Part shown: positions 16,399-27,415 of the stretch, piece by piece
Numbering within the stretch: the stretch's first letter is position 1
Layout: each line of letters starts with the position of its first letter
Virus record (IMG/VR): IMGVR_UViG_3300030202_002186
Coordinates: 1 to 36,660 of that record
Reading direction: 5' to 3' (one strand)
Origin: a virus
DNA: 36,660 bases
Translations under genes and position numbers: made by a program
The notes under the pieces: generated by a model
What the model saw: the letters and a program-made list of their open reading frames with translations, nothing else
Told to the model about the DNA's origin: nothing
Database searches by the model: none

Positions 16399-17934
16399 AT
16401 GAACATTCGCAAATTTGCACAGATTTTTGATGGTCTGAAGCAGGCGCACGGCACGTTCACGATTGAGTCGAAGTCAAGCAGTGGCAAGACTCAAGGCAAA
16501 GCGAACGTAGTACGCGAAGCACGGACCAAAGAACATTGGGAAAGACACCTAGCGGGTCAGCAATCCATTGGGATTATTCCAATCAATGAAGACAATGCAT
16601 GCCGCTGGGGCTGCATTGACATCGATCAATATAACTTTGATCACAAGGCGCTAATCGACAAGATCCAAGCGGCAAAGCTACCGCTGGTGGTGTGCCGATC
16701 TAAGTCGGGCGGTGCTCACGTATTTTTATTCACAGATGAATTTATTCCTGCCAAGGACATGCAGGACGTGCTGACACAGTTGAGCGCGGGCCTTGGCTAT
16801 GGCGGCAGTGAGATCTTTCCCAAACAGATCAGCTTAAACCTAGAGCGTGGCGACGTCGGCAACTTTCTGAACATGCCGTACTTCGATCACGAAAACGGCC
16901 TGCGGTACGGGTTCAACCCTGACGGTACAGCAGCCACGTTTGATGAATTCCTTGAGCTTGTTGACCACAACGTACAGACGCACGAACAGGCACTGGCTTT
17001 GGTGGTGGAGCAAGATGCCGCACTGCCCATACCGGACGGTCCGCCTTGTCTACAGATCTTATGTAAAGAAGGCATCGGTGAAGGCGCAAGAAACAACGGA
17101 CTTTTTAATCTTGGGGTATACCTGCGCAAGGCACACCCGGAGACGTGGGAGTCAGAGATCCTGACTCACAACATGAATTTCATTCATCCACCTTTACCGC
17201 TGGGTGAAGTCAACACGGTTGCCAAGCAGCTAGAGCGTAAGGATTACGCCTACAAGTGCCGTGATGCCCCGATCAATGCGTACTGCAACCCAGAGCTTTG
17301 CAAGACGCGTAAGTTTGGTATCGATGCAGCTACCTCTGGCGTGCAGATAGCCAACCTGCGCAAGTACAACAGTGTGCCACCCGTGTGGTTCTTGGACGTT
17401 CAAGGCAAACCCCTAGAGCTTGCGACCGACGATCTGATGGTTCAGTCGGCCTTCCAGAAGGCGTGTGTCGATCAGTTGAACTTCTTCCCAAGGACTGTGC
17501 AAAAGGCGCAGTGGGAGCAGCGTATCAATGCTCTGCTCAATGAGATGAGTGACACCGAAGGTCACGTCATAGAAGTAAGCCAAGACGTCAGCGTAAACGG
17601 GCAGTTCGCCGATCACTTGGAAGAGTTCTGTACAGGTCATCAGGCTGCGGATGAGAAGGAGCAGATCTTGCTCAAGCGGCCATGGACAGATGAGGACCAG
17701 AAAGAAACGTACTTCAGGCTGAAAGATCTAGAAGCCCACCTCATCAAAGCGAACTTCAAGGTCTACAAAACACATCAAATCGCGCAACGTTTGCGGGACG
17801 TGAACGGTGAGGCCACTCAATTGCGCATACAGGGTAAAGTGATACGGTTATGGAAGATCCCTGCGCACGAGCAGGCCATAAGTCGTATAGAGCCGCCCAG
17901 CTTCGGGGGCACTGAAGAGGAGATACCGTTTTGA
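16399..17934 (+). CDS. AEP-superfamily primase
   Basis: A 511-residue protein with the archaeo-eukaryotic primase signature: CIDIDQY gives the metal-binding Asp74-x-Asp76, and SKSGGAHVFLF supplies His107 of the sxH motif. These are followed by FPKQ and GNFLNMPYF segments typical of phage AEP primases. A Cys cluster (YKCRDAPINAYCNPELCKT, about residues 290-310) looks like a zinc-binding element of the C-terminal half. It should synthesise primers for the phage PolA and may also extend them, as some AEPs are primase-polymerases. It precedes the UvrD helicase in the same operon, overlapping the intervening small gene by 4 bases. Confidence 0.85.
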   Translation: MNIRKFAQIFDGLKQAHGTFTIESKSSSGKTQGKANVVREARTKEHWERHLAGQQSIGIIPINEDNACRWGCIDIDQYNFDHKALIDKIQAAKLPLVVCRSKSGGAHVFLFTDEFIPAKDMQDVLTQLSAGLGYGGSEIFPKQISLNLERGDVGNFLNMPYFDHENGLRYGFNPDGTAATFDEFLELVDHNVQTHEQALALVVEQDAALPIPDGPPCLQILCKEGIGEGARNNGLFNLGVYLRKAHPETWESEILTHNMNFIHPPLPLGEVNTVAKQLERKDYAYKCRDAPINAYCNPELCKTRKFGIDAATSGVQIANLRKYNSVPPVWFLDVQGKPLELATDDLMVQSAFQKACVDQLNFFPRTVQKAQWEQRINALLNEMSDTEGHVIEVSQDVSVNGQFADHLEEFCTGHQAADEKEQILLKRPWTDEDQKETYFRLKDLEAHLIKANFKVYKTHQIAQRLRDVNGEATQLRIQGKVIRLWKIPAHEQAISRIEPPSFGGTEEEIPF

Positions 17935-21869: not shown

Positions 21870-22820
21870 ATGTTTGGACCTGCAATGGGTGGTATGGGCG
21901 GCGGATTTGGCCAGCAAGGCGGATTTGGCCAGCAAGGCGGATTTAGGGGACAACAACAAATGTCGCCTTTCGGGCAGCCCATGAATCGACAGCCGATGGG
22001 GGGCTTTGGTCAACAACCCCAACAATTTGGTGGGGGCTTTCCGCAACCCCAACAGCAGTTTGGCGGGGGCTTTCAGCAACCTATGCGACAGCCAATGCAG
22101 CAGTTTGGTGGGGGCTTCGGTGGGGGCTTTCAAGGACAGGGCGGATTTGGGCAACAACCTCAACAGCAATTCGGAGGTGGTTTTCAAGGACAAGGCGGAT
22201 TTGGGCAACCTCAACAACAATTTGGCGGGGGCTTCGGTGGCGGTTTTCAGCAAATGCCTCAACAGCAATTTGGCGGGGGCTTTCAAGGACAAGGCGGCTT
22301 CGGCGGCATGATGGGCGGCTTCGGCGGTCCTGCGGCAGCCCAGCAACAAGCAATGCAGAGGATGATGGGCGGTATGGGCGGCGGTCAAATGGGCCAGTTC
22401 GGTGGTGGGTTTCAATCCCAAGGCCCACAAGATTTAAGGCAAATACGGCAACGACAAAGCGATGCCATGTTTGATCGTCAAGGCCGTGGTGGCCGGGGTA
22501 ATCAAGGTCAAGACATGAAGATTGATATAGATCAATTTCAAGCAAAGCCATCACCTCCTGTGGCAATGAACCAAAGAGATATGACCAGACTGCAAGGTCG
22601 TGGATTCGGCGGTGGGTTTCAATCCCAAGGACCACAAGATTTAAGGGGAATGCAGGCACGACAAATCGATTCCATGTTTCAATCTCAAGGGCCACGAAAC
22701 ATGCGACAAATGACTGCGATGCCTCAACTGTCGCGAGGTATTGGCGGGTTTGGAGGGCAACGCGGACTTGCGCAAGGCAGGTTTTCTAACCTCCAAGACG
22801 CAATGAGAACTTTTCGATAA
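21870..22820 (+). CDS. Phe-Gly/Gln-rich low-complexity protein
   Basis: A 316-residue protein unlike its neighbours. Residues 1-150 are built almost wholly of Gly, Gln, Phe, Met and Pro in imperfect repeats such as QQFGGGFQGQGGFGQ. The C-terminal half is more mixed but repeats GGGFQSQGPQDLR, with related RQ/SMF phrases, two to three times, and contains Arg-rich spacers. There is no transmembrane, enzyme or folded-domain motif. The composition resembles FG-repeat or prion-like disordered proteins that form condensates or gels; such a role here is inference. It follows PolA after a 19-base gap carrying a hairpin over its ribosome site. A structural or coat-associated role is the main alternative. 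Confidence 0.75.
   Translation: MFGPAMGGMGGGFGQQGGFGQQGGFRGQQQMSPFGQPMNRQPMGGFGQQPQQFGGGFPQPQQQFGGGFQQPMRQPMQQFGGGFGGGFQGQGGFGQQPQQQFGGGFQGQGGFGQPQQQFGGGFGGGFQQMPQQQFGGGFQGQGGFGGMMGGFGGPAAAQQQAMQRMMGGMGGGQMGQFGGGFQSQGPQDLRQIRQRQSDAMFDRQGRGGRGNQGQDMKIDIDQFQAKPSPPVAMNQRDMTRLQGRGFGGGFQSQGPQDLRGMQARQIDSMFQSQGPRNMRQMTAMPQLSRGIGGFGGQRGLAQGRFSNLQDAMRTFR
21901..21947 (+). repeat. 18-bp tandem repeat in the low-complexity gene
   Basis: GCGGATTTGGCCAGCAAG is repeated exactly at 21901-21918 and 21919-21936, with a diverging third copy from 21937. It encodes GFGQQG units. The exact identity at DNA level suggests recent slippage or duplication. Confidence 0.85.
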
Positions 22821-24414: not shown

Positions 24415-24541
24415 TCACTTTCTCCAACAGGGTTTCCATTTGCTGTTCCATTACAGACAGCCGCTCATCAAGACCAAGAAGCAGCGTTACCACTCGCTCC
24501 GCTTCTTCTTGATCAAAGATTATTGTCAGTTCGCCTTTCAC
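24320..24541 (-). CDS. small coiled-coil protein with basic C-terminus
   Basis: About 73 residues from GTG 24541, which overlaps the upstream TGA as GTGA and suggests coupled translation; a longer TTG start at 24586 is possible. The protein has TIIFDQEEAERVVTLLLG, then a coiled-coil stretch LSVMEQQMETLLEKVNELQ, then a Lys/Arg-rich segment QKPRKRRRSP. No family is known to me. The last 95 bases overlap the next gene in a different frame, so one of the two coding claims deserves caution; the ribosome cassette favours the other gene. Confidence 0.5.
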   Translation of the reverse strand: MKGELTIIFDQEEAERVVTLLLGLDERLSVMEQQMETLLEKVNELQHGQKPRKRRRSPVSGAGDASAAEQNKE

Positions 24542-25020
24542 GATGGCGACGCTATTGTTTGCACATCGACCACATGGTCTGACCAACTGGAGTCGTCTCG
24601 CGCTTTACGGATTGCTTCCTGCTCTGTCTTAGCAGTGACACCCCTGACGACGCTGGTCTGAACGATGGTCACGTCCCATTGCTTGGCGCTGGACGCCAAT
24701 CCGGTGACTGCGATTCGGGTGTGCTCGCTGCCGTTCCAGTCGACTTCCAAGCCCGCTTCGCGGATCGTGTCGCAAATAGTATGACCAAATTTTTCTCCGA
24801 CTTTGCCGCCCCACGCCAGATAGCAAACGCCAGCATCTTTCAAATTCTCCGCGTCTTGCATGTGATAAAAAACGTAAGCCATTTCTTTGTCTTCGGGGAT
24901 CTCCGACAGCCCGCAGGACTGACAGCACGTGTGGTTGGCCTTGGCAAAGAACCCCTTATCGCGGAGCGCGGCAAACGCTAAGTCAATACGACGTGCGATT
25001 TTCTTGGCGTCTTTGTGCAT
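24538..25020 (-). CDS. Cys-motif protein (DUF6891-like), first gene of minus operon
   Basis: Encodes 160 residues from ATG 25020, placed just after the shared GGAGAAAGTGAAA cassette; an apparent TTG start upstream is inside that leader. The protein carries CCQSCG (Cys32, 33, 36), a phrase like that of the DUF6891 family, then YVFYHMQDAENLKDAGVCYLAWGG. The cysteines could bind metal. It leads the minus-strand operon of six overlapping genes and faces the divergent promoter region shared with the gene at 25098. The family link is from memory of the motif; function is unknown. Confidence 0.6.
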   Translation of the reverse strand: MHKDAKKIARRIDLAFAALRDKGFFAKANHTCCQSCGLSEIPEDKEMAYVFYHMQDAENLKDAGVCYLAWGGKVGEKFGHTICDTIREAGLEVDWNGSEHTRIAVTGLASSAKQWDVTIVQTSVVRGVTAKTEQEAIRKARDDSSWSDHVVDVQTIASPS

Positions 25021-25040
25021 TTTCACTTTCTCCAAAAAGC

Positions 25041-25097: not shown

Positions 25098-25688
25098 ATG
25101 GCACACAGTCTGAACAACTCCAAAGCAGCCGACTTTATGAAGCGCACGTCGCAGTACTCGACCCACGGGTCACGGCGGGGATACGTGGACCACGGCTCGT
25201 ACATCGTAGAAACCGATTGGAACCGCGAAGCACTGATCCTTCAAAAAGTTGAATTGCAAGCTAAGATCAATACCTTCCGCACCAAGTACAAACTGCCAAA
25301 AAAGAAAAAAATCGATGAGTTGATCGTCCCTTCGATCCGCAACAACGACCGCAATACGTATAAAAAAATCAAAAAACGCCGGTCATATAGCGCAGAAGAG
25401 CTAGAGCACATAAAGGCATGCGCAAAAAAGCTCACGGCCCTTGATGCACAAATTTTAAAAATGCCGCCGAGCCGAAATATCTCTACGAGCGTACCGCAGC
25501 AGATGTTGGCTATCTTGAGCCAACGCAGCCCAGAGCTTTACAGGGCGCTAGAAAAGGAAGCCACAAAACAAATCGCTCGTGCAGCGGCTGAAGCGGTTAG
25601 ACCCGATGAGCTAGCGGGCGAAGAGAGGCGAATCTTTTTGACGATCAAAGAACGGCAGGAGAGCAGGACGGAGCGTCTAAGTGATTAG
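25098..25688 (+). CDS. basic helical protein, unknown
   Basis: A 196-residue Lys/Arg-rich protein with no recognised family. The N-terminus (AHSLNNSKAADFMKRTSQYS, SRRGYVDHGSYIVETDWNREA) is followed by a charged helix, a very basic stretch (KLPKKKKIDELIV through YKKIKKRRSYS) and a C-terminal helical part. It is transcribed away from the minus operon by the divergent promoter region. A nucleic-acid-binding role is plausible from composition only. The ribosome site is weak (TTGGAAAAAAG before ATG 25098). Confidence 0.6.
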   Translation: MAHSLNNSKAADFMKRTSQYSTHGSRRGYVDHGSYIVETDWNREALILQKVELQAKINTFRTKYKLPKKKKIDELIVPSIRNNDRNTYKKIKKRRSYSAEELEHIKACAKKLTALDAQILKMPPSRNISTSVPQQMLAILSQRSPELYRALEKEATKQIARAAAEAVRPDELAGEERRIFLTIKERQESRTERLSD

Positions 25689-25726: not shown

Positions 25727-25792
25727 TTGTCTAAGTTGTGTCTAAGAACTGGGGTAGACAAGGCGGGTAAGGTATGGGATAATGTGCATACC
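25727..25792 (+). promoter_or_regulatory. operator-rich promoter for the gene at 25870
   Basis: TAGACA (25755-25760) and GATAAT (25778-25783) are 17 bases apart, a strong promoter. TGTCTAAG occurs twice as direct repeats (25728 and 25739), 11 bases apart, and TAGACA is its inverted counterpart. GGTATG (25771-25776) and CATACC (25787-25792) form a perfect dyad around the -10. This looks like a tightly regulated promoter. Confidence 0.75.
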
Positions 25793-25821: not shown

Positions 25822-25837
25822 TGTTCCACGTGGAACA
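25822..25837. promoter_or_regulatory. parS: parS-like ParB-binding site (copy 1)
   Basis: TGTTCCACGTGGAACA is a perfect 16-bp palindrome and fits the chromosomal parS consensus TGTTNCACGTGNAACA. It lies in the leader region between the strong promoter at 25755-25783 and ATG 25870. An identical copy is at 36295. ParB binding here could recruit or spread on the phage DNA and also block transcription from the upstream promoter. No parB gene is seen in this window. Confidence 0.8.
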
Positions 25838-25869: not shown

Positions 25870-26331
25870 ATGACTCAAGCCATATCCAACCCTGCGTTCG
25901 TCTACGATGACGGCGGTCGCAAAGACGCTGGCTACAAAGGCGATGCAGGTGACTGCGTTTGCCGAGCCATCGCCATCGCGGCGCAGCTTCCCTACCAACA
26001 GGTCTACGACCGATTGGCGGAGGGCAACGCCTCGCAGCGTAAATCGAAACGCACGGGCAAGCAGTCCCGATCAGCCCGCAACGGTATTTATACCCAGCGG
26101 AAATGGTTCAAGGACTACATGCAGGAGCTAGGCTTTGTCTGGACCCCTACGATGCAAATCGGGAGCGGATGCCAAGTGCATCTCAACGCCGGAGAGTTAC
26201 CGAGCGGACGATTGATCTGCAAAGTTTCTAAGCATCTTGTTTCAGTAATCGATGGCGTCATCCATGACACCTACGATTGCTCCAGAGACGAGCAGCGATG
26301 CGTCTACGGGTATTGGCAACCAACCAGCTAA
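25870..26331 (+). CDS. conserved phage protein with Cys/His pair, papain-like candidate
   Basis: A 153-residue protein of a widespread phage family. GDCVCRAIAIA places Cys29 at a helix start, while SKHLVSVIDGVIHDTYD supplies His122 followed by Asp residues (128, 133, 136). Together with the terminal RCVYGYW, this layout resembles a papain-like or C39-like cysteine protease fold, though it might be an inactive relative. It is expressed from the operator-rich promoter and follows a parS-like site and a 5' hairpin. Its ribosome cassette GGAGATAGTGA is shared by several nearby genes. Substrate and activity are unknown. Confidence 0.7.
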   Translation: MTQAISNPAFVYDDGGRKDAGYKGDAGDCVCRAIAIAAQLPYQQVYDRLAEGNASQRKSKRTGKQSRSARNGIYTQRKWFKDYMQELGFVWTPTMQIGSGCQVHLNAGELPSGRLICKVSKHLVSVIDGVIHDTYDCSRDEQRCVYGYWQPTS

Positions 26332-27091: not shown

Positions 27092-27335
27092 CAAAAAACG
27101 CGCTTCTATATAGTACTTTCCCAGAAAAAATATTTTTTGAAAAAACAATTTCAAAAATGGCGGTACAGGCGGTACGGTGGTACAGCCCTTATAGGACGGG
27201 GCCTGTAGCCGTACCGGCAGCGTACCACCGTGTTTAGAGCCGTTACGGGCTAAACCAAAAAACGCGTAACTGCATAGGAGTTTTCCGGAAAAATTTTTTT
27301 TATCTTTTTTGTTTTGCTGAAAAAGTACTATATAG
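27092..27335. other. origin-like noncoding block (AT-rich, iterons, long inverted repeats)
   Basis: The gap 27062-27415 has no convincing gene. CTATATAGTACTTT (27106-27119) and its exact inverse (27322-27335) flank about 200 bases. Inside are AT-rich tracts (27121-27158, 27281-27320) and a core with GGTAC at 27162, 27171 and 27179, opposed by GTACC at 27211 and 27222, plus an exact 10-bp dyad (27174-27183 / 27222-27231). CAAAAAACGCG is repeated at 27092 and 27256. Iterons beside AT-rich DNA are typical of replication origins; a regulator array is the alternative. Confidence 0.6.
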
Positions 27336-27415
27336 GAACCCGAATTAAGGAATGGGGTATTGACAGTGCGCGTGACCGTACTGTTAGGCTGCGAGAAATC
27401 GCATAGGAATTCGAT

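Follow-up and report, generated by a model that had tools for sequence, protein, structure and literature searches.

The phage DNA analysed here (the window, i.e., the whole of a linear virus record of 36.7 kb) carries two exact copies of the 16-base palindrome TGTTCCACGTGGAACA, at 25822-25837 and 36295-36310, both of which fit the chromosomal-type parS pattern TGTTNCACGTGNAACA. We predict, with a probability of about 0.75, that they act as parS sites carried by the phage, to which the chromosomal ParB protein of the host binds, and the window phage and its relatives would probably, by this prediction, borrow host ParB. An earlier note made from the sequence had proposed recruitment of host ParB, and this is supported as the best reading because the sites are parS-like, exceed chance expectation, are kept in relatives, and occur where no parA or parB gene was found.

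Two parS-like palindromes in a phage genome

The features of the window that bear on the argument are as follows.

25755..25783, + strand: sigma70-like promoter before site 1 (TAGACA-17-GATAAT, extended TG; from a promoter scan)
25822..25837, palindrome: parS-like site 1, TGTTCCACGTGGAACA, lying in a leader ahead of an early-region gene
25870..26331, + strand: 153-aa ORF (phrog_3754, function unknown) that follows the site 1 leader
31409..31963, + strand: terminase small subunit (phrog_51, E 2.5e-06)
32275..33768, + strand: terminase large subunit (terL), the landmark of site clustering in relatives
33761..36658, + strand: 966-aa ORF running from terL to the window end, open at its 3' end, containing site 2
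35335..35350, strand unspecified: degenerate match TGTTAAACGTGCAACA, with a broken CACGTG core
36295..36310, palindrome: parS-like site 2, TGTTCCACGTGGAACA, within the ORF that follows terL; translated in frame as V-P-R-G-T

The earlier note had reported exact palindromes at 25822 and 36295, the one in a leader and the other in a coding stretch, and had considered them improbable by chance; all three points hold. With up to three mismatches allowed, only one further match appears, so that the window has three where shuffled sequences average 0.16, and three or more were reached in 0 of 100 shuffles. The base composition predicts 0.00012 exact matches to TGTTNCACGTGNAACA in 36,660 bases, and two are observed. 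Two of the eight CACGTG hexamers in the window are part of a 16-mer of the TGTTNCACGTGNAACA type. The window 16-mer also matches TGTTTCACGTGAAACA, given as the bacterial parS consensus in PMC10197239, at all but two variable positions; unlike chromosomal parS, the window sites lie on a phage genome, away from any parAB found.

Site 1 is placed between the ORFs 25098-25688 and 25870-26331, with the start codon of the latter 32 bases on, and the site and the same leader block also occur in a relative with 99% TerL identity (L338:3193), before a gene with a differing start. The sigma70-like promoter that appears to precede site 1 is suggestive only, one such sequence having been found against a shuffle mean of 0.7, which is not above chance alone. 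Site 2 falls within the ORF 33761-36658, for which no Pfam family was retrieved at E <=0.01 and a partial match to phrog_13543 was obtained (E 8.6e-07, 84 residues). The degenerate match at 35335 is probably not a working site. Three loci (L126, L128, and L141) contain TGTCAAACGTGGAACA, which may be compared with the degenerate TGTTAAACGTGCAACA of the window if homology is assumed.

The window phage and its relatives

The genomes of its four closest named relatives measure 57.6-61.5 kb, and the window is therefore probably a fragment of a genome in that size range. Its TerL is 57-66% identical to those of these relatives, HTVC023P, HTVC027P, psg01, and DSL-LC04 (57% for HTVC023P and 63% for HTVC027P). 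With the HTVC023P-type pelagiphages it shares a homologous TerL, genes for a primase, a helicase, and a DNA polymerase upstream of the terminase, and a similar overall gene order, the order having been compared by eye. It differs from them with respect to the site: HTVC023P and psg01 lack an exact copy, and HTVC027P has one at one mismatch. A 50.9-kb contig with 99% TerL identity (G001) has gene blocks absent from the window, and vice versa. A megablast search of window positions 14001-36660 against isolated phages retrieved no match; no tRNA genes were found in the window or in two relatives, and no integrase family is among the PHROG and Pfam families listed.

The alphaproteobacterial host supposed in the earlier note is possible, given that two of the four named relatives infect SAR11, but unproven, the other two being labelled Gammaproteobacteria in one case and carrying no host label in the other. 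Matches to the window TerL in genome_contigs fall on contigs of metagenome-assembled genomes (MAGs) labelled Rhodobacteraceae, Maricaulis, Verrucomicrobia, Euryarchaeota, and others; as these labels span many phyla, archaea included, they cannot all be hosts. The loci L344-L361, which are TerL contigs in MAGs of many phyla and also of archaea, suggest that phage contigs were misbinned. Judging from the sources of its relatives, the window phage is probably marine.

Several further features of these genomes were recorded. The window ORF 21870-22820 (+ strand) codes for a 316-aa protein with G/F/Q-rich, FGGGFQ-like repeats and no PHROG match. The segment 27062-27415 has A/T runs and no assigned gene, and it contains inverted arms of 31 nt that are 81% complementary (27099-27129 and 27312-27342). 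On contig G001, three domains are combined in one 334-aa protein (L338:1322-2323, - strand): DUF6891, the C-terminal domain of RNA polymerase alpha (E 7e-18), and sigma-70 region 4 (E 9.8e-06). This protein is possibly a phage factor redirecting host transcription; in the related window ORF 24538-25035, the domain scan found DUF6891 alone.

Conservation of the site among terminase relatives

We assembled a family set of 172 loci (1.59 Mb) by TerL similarity only, making no use of the site; it comprises 80 loci, 17 of 18 from MAG contigs, and 75 new loci of a further 80, the five duplicates being counted once and L361, with a TerL match of 43 residues, being excluded. The exact pattern occurs 68 times in 64 of the 172 loci, whereas 419 permuted half-site palindromes occur 0.03 times on average and never more than 5 times. 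The 68 sites do not amount to 68 independent events because the loci are related and many are near-identical. These loci have 290 CACGTG hexamers, 68 of them within the full parS 16-mer.

Grouped by TerL identity to the window, the exact site is present in 17 of 24 loci at >=92%, 24 of 49 at 80-91%, and 23 of 49 at 67-79%, and in 0 of the 50 TerL-recruited loci below 67%. Several of the seven siteless loci in the closest group are truncated. Retention of the 16-mer in related contigs had been put forward as a check, and many close relatives do retain it. Five contigs recruited by the site itself have an exact copy at TerL identities of 49-59% (L022, L027, L035, L069, and L087). In the 80-locus set, 44 loci have an exact site, 10 a site at one mismatch, and 4 a site at two mismatches with an intact core; of the 22 with none, 10 stop <800 bases after terL. 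Eighteen of 24 long contigs have a site at <=1 mismatch and six do not; two of the six are 44-46 kb long and hold loci that belong to the 22. A further sample of 30 records included four recruited by the site and four MAG genomes; among the remaining virus records, 6 of 22 have a site at <=1 mismatch.

Among the named relatives, psg01 and DSL-LC04 have no site at <=2 mismatches, and HTVC023P has only three matches at that threshold, all with altered cores and none exact. The single match in HTVC027P, CGTTTCACGTGAAACA at position 16412 (L203:15837), has one mismatch and lies within an unannotated open frame reading ...SPHQYAFHVKHP..., and may be a coding coincidence. The main text of the HTVC027P infection transcriptome study (PMC12753301) names neither parB nor parS.

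Position relative to terL and conservation of the DNA dyad

The sites are clustered around terL. Of the 68, 22 lie within 200 bases upstream of the extrapolated terL start or just overlap it, 22 lie downstream of terL at +200-500 bases, and 16 at +2-4 kb; the remainder are distributed upstream at 4-8 kb (three) and 1-2 kb (one) and downstream at 0-200 bases (one), 500-1000 bases (one), and 1000-2000 bases (two). No site was found at +4-8 kb from terL in 237 kb. The position follows the clade: at >=80% TerL identity all 41 site-bearing loci have it in the gene that follows terL (L124 has an additional one 6.3 kb upstream), and at 67-79% it is within about 120 bases upstream of terL in 20 of 23. 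The three exceptions have it in the gene behind terL (L367), 1.0 kb upstream (L383), and, as two sites, 5.7 kb upstream (L387). In L368 and L072 the sites upstream of terL are paired, 24 bases apart. We conclude that in the loci compared here the location of the putative parS site differs between clades and is confined to the neighbourhood of terL.

In the gene behind terL, exact sites read V-[PS]-R-[GE]-T in a single frame, and one-mismatch forms read F-S-R-E-T. Of the 68 exact sites, 63 have symmetric variable positions, and the CC..GG and TC..GA forms are exchanged through paired amino acid changes (P/S together with G/E) that keep the dyad. In one module of 14 unique sequences, synonymous variants occur at none of the 5 codons of the site but at 13 of the 22 codons flanking it, and a fifteenth sequence has S replaced by P together with E by G, with the palindrome retained; on its own, this comparison of site and flank codons is moderate evidence. 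Two in-gene modules of smaller size, with 4 and 7 unique sequences, show no synonymous change in the site, but their flanks vary little too. Selection on the DNA dyad rather than on the peptide best explains these observations because the changes are paired, the variable positions are symmetric, the site is relocated outside the gene, and a further copy is found in an early leader.

Search for ParA and ParB

The window yielded no ParB_N, HTH_ParB, or AAA_31 domain, in keeping with the absence of parA and parB claimed earlier, and the complementary 50.9-kb contig G001, to which the check was extended, has none either. Six-frame searches for ParB_N and HTH_ParB gave 0 of 17 records each in the group, which comprised 13 virus contigs, mostly fragments, and the 4 complete named genomes; the ParA-type AAA_31 gave 0 of 9. 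Among 14 control genomes, the same models detected ParB_N in 10, HTH_ParB in 9, and AAA_31 in all 14. No ParB family is among the 25 listed of 38 Pfam families in 59 proteins. Hence, the arrangement of P1-type phage-plasmids, with their own parA and parB beside parS, was not found. Across 100 site-bearing virus records (50 from each of two site-recruited sets, many of them fragments), three have ParB_N at E <=0.001, two above the curated cut-off and one below it.

The motif in viruses at large

At least 120 stretches with TGTTCCACGTGGAACA and at least 120 with TGTTTCACGTGAAACA were retrieved from viral_contigs; a reversed palindrome retrieved none, and a swapped one that retains the CACGTG core retrieved 10. 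Of the site-bearing loci, 26 of 120 and 39 of 119, respectively, have a match above 60 bits, within the stretch fetched, to at least one of 24 proteins of the window, so that most of the stretches fetched show no such link to the window phage. In two of them (L225:2657-3444 and L252:10535-11462), five exact TGTTTCACGTGAAACA copies lie in about 0.8 to 0.9 kb with a TerL-like gene nearby, and these appear to be site arrays, not single sites.

In isolated phages, a 30-base BLAST query around the site retrieved 214 records, 109 at >=95% identity, and its TGTTTCACGTGAAACA version 399 records, 302 at >=95%, these counts being inflated by partial matches and duplicate accessions; scrambled controls retrieved 6 and 8 records, none at 95%. 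Twelve phages were scanned for exact copies, namely, seven BLAST hits, phi29 and CRP-810 for other reasons, and T4, T7, and lambda as E. coli phages; because its members were chosen, this set gives no frequency. Exact copies number two in KoPa-4, two in LpeD, two in Bacchae, four in vB_BcoS-136, and three in XD2. The Pseudomonas phage phiPsa374 (KJ409772.2) has a site at 389, within a direct terminal repeat annotated as 1-526, and a second at 98150 of 98287, which is the matching place at the other genome end. ParB_N was found in none of these phages or phi29, and T4, T7, and lambda have no site. The single exact copy in the Klebsiella jumbo phage RaK2 is inside a baseplate gene, and so some copies may be incidental.

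The BLAST tallies count phages by host only indirectly. Escherichia is outside the ten host names listed in the BLAST tallies, where the 10th place holds 4 and 9 records, and at least 635 Escherichia phage records exist; this absence among the listed names fits the statement in PMC8367383 that E. coli has no ParA or ParB homolog and no parS, with the caveat that the ParB_N model has matches in the E. coli control genome. Klebsiella, with 11 records in the tally of the 30-base query, runs against such a pattern of depletion. Ten of these are among the 60 rows listed, each matching without error an identical stretch of 20 query bases, and eight of the ten are of the RaK2 kind (345-358 kb). The TGTTTCACGTGAAACA tally includes 94 Listeria records; those listed lack annotation, are in many cases short, and could be host DNA.

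Alternative explanations

The same palindrome could be an operator or signal for a non-ParB protein of the phage, such as a late-gene regulator or a packaging initiator, its likeness to parS being accidental. The closeness of the sites to terL, mostly just upstream of it in the 67-79% relatives, and the promoter-like sequence before site 1 are what such a signal would show, but the same pattern recurs in unrelated isolated phages (phi29 and those of Pseudomonas, Lactobacillus, and Bacillus), only a minority of the site-bearing virus loci share a protein with the window (the 26 of 120 and 39 of 119 above), and the bacterial parS consensus is matched exactly, variable positions included. We regard this explanation as quite improbable: a binder encoded by the phages themselves is unlikely to be shared among phages of unrelated build, whereas a ParB shared by their hosts fits. 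An origin in coding constraint, with a conserved V-[PS]-R-[GE]-T peptide forcing the palindrome, draws on the fact that every site-bearing locus with TerL at >=80% has the site in that frame of the gene after terL. It is barely credible, and we rejected it, since it is contradicted by the sites outside the gene (site 1 in a leader; 20 of 23 loci at 67-79% with the site upstream of terL, sometimes two of them 24 bases apart and in different frames) and by the paired peptide changes that leave the DNA dyad intact.

Two further alternatives concern what ParB would do or where it would come from. A self-contained partition system with a divergent ParB of the phage's own is conceivable, as the window is incomplete and ParB-type folds, including single-domain ones, occur in phages according to PMC12704722; with ParB_N and HTH_ParB in 0 of 17 records, the complementary 50.9-kb contig included, AAA_31 in 0 of 9, and no ParB among the Pfam families listed, we consider it highly unlikely. 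Replicating phage DNA might instead act as a decoy: by titrating ParB away it would interfere with segregation of the host chromosome or release genes of the origin region. With one or two sites per genome, a burst of phage copies could outnumber the 1-20 sites of a host (range from PMC10197239), and two parS mimics of SGI1 destabilise the IncC helper in a dose-dependent manner (PMC10954446), but a pure decoy need not remain beside terL, and as the sole function this seems rather unlikely to us. A decoy effect may accompany recruitment.

Proposed recruitment of host ParB and its precedents

Few bacterial chromosome proteins are as widespread as ParB. In the proposed recruitment, the phage would supply the DNA site and the host the ParB, which acts as a CTP-dependent clamp; ParA and SMC might follow. 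We infer that host ParB would bind, load, and spread over the terminase/head region and, at site 1, over the early leader. Two benefits can be conceived. The incoming genome might be placed or held in the origin or nucleoid territory of the host, with an option of delay or persistence in poorly growing cells, as in phi29; alternatively, ParB might influence how the terL block is transcribed or packaged, until ParB is diluted by replication. We think these the most likely benefits, and the present data do not separate them: the close association of the sites with terL suggests that the terL block is affected (through transcription, packaging, or the nearby DNA), and the phi29 precedent suggests persistence or positioning. 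Two counterpoints apply to the proposal, namely, that a pure centromere needs no tight location beside terL and that the site is not universal among relatives, being found in 0 of 50 loci below 67% TerL identity. A more speculative extension, which we hold to be doubtful, is that phages of several bacterial phyla convergently acquired "centromeres" for host ParB and that in the window family ParB would nucleate at a site kept at the front of the terminase/head block, spread, and repress or shield this block in the infecting genome until accumulating copies dilute it off, thereby serving as a copy-number timer for the switch to packaging.

The protein-primed Bacillus phage phi29 is like the window phage in that parS-like sites without a ParB were found on its genome (four exact TGTTTCACGTGGAACA and no ParB_N); phi29 is virulent. 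It differs in its size of 19 kb, its spore-forming host, and the asymmetry and scattered placement of its four sites, whereas the window family has one or two sites tied to terL, and its two cultured relatives infect SAR11. The phi29 chromosome is reported to be entrapped in spores by host Spo0J (= ParB) (PMC9437464, citing Meijer 2005). This reported entrapment, together with the four exact phi29 sites, is a precedent for a strategy that the earlier note had called undescribed; beyond phi29, no description was recognised among the open-access papers searched, subscription journals and preprints lying outside this scope. A second comparison is offered by SGI1, which binds and uses the ParB of an IncC plasmid through two parS mimics (PMC10954446). 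It is likewise a mobile element with two such mimics and no complete Par system, but the ParB is that of a plasmid rather than chromosomal, the 22-base site is unrelated, and SGI1 is a genomic island and not a phage.

The use of host ParB in this manner is directly testable in laboratory strains. With a conserved parS-like site and no ParB found in the window family, and with such sites in isolated phages of Pseudomonas, Bacillus, and Lactobacillus, it may be common rather than a speciality of phi29, and it may bear on the intracellular location of phage DNA and on the persistence of virulent phages in slow-growing hosts.
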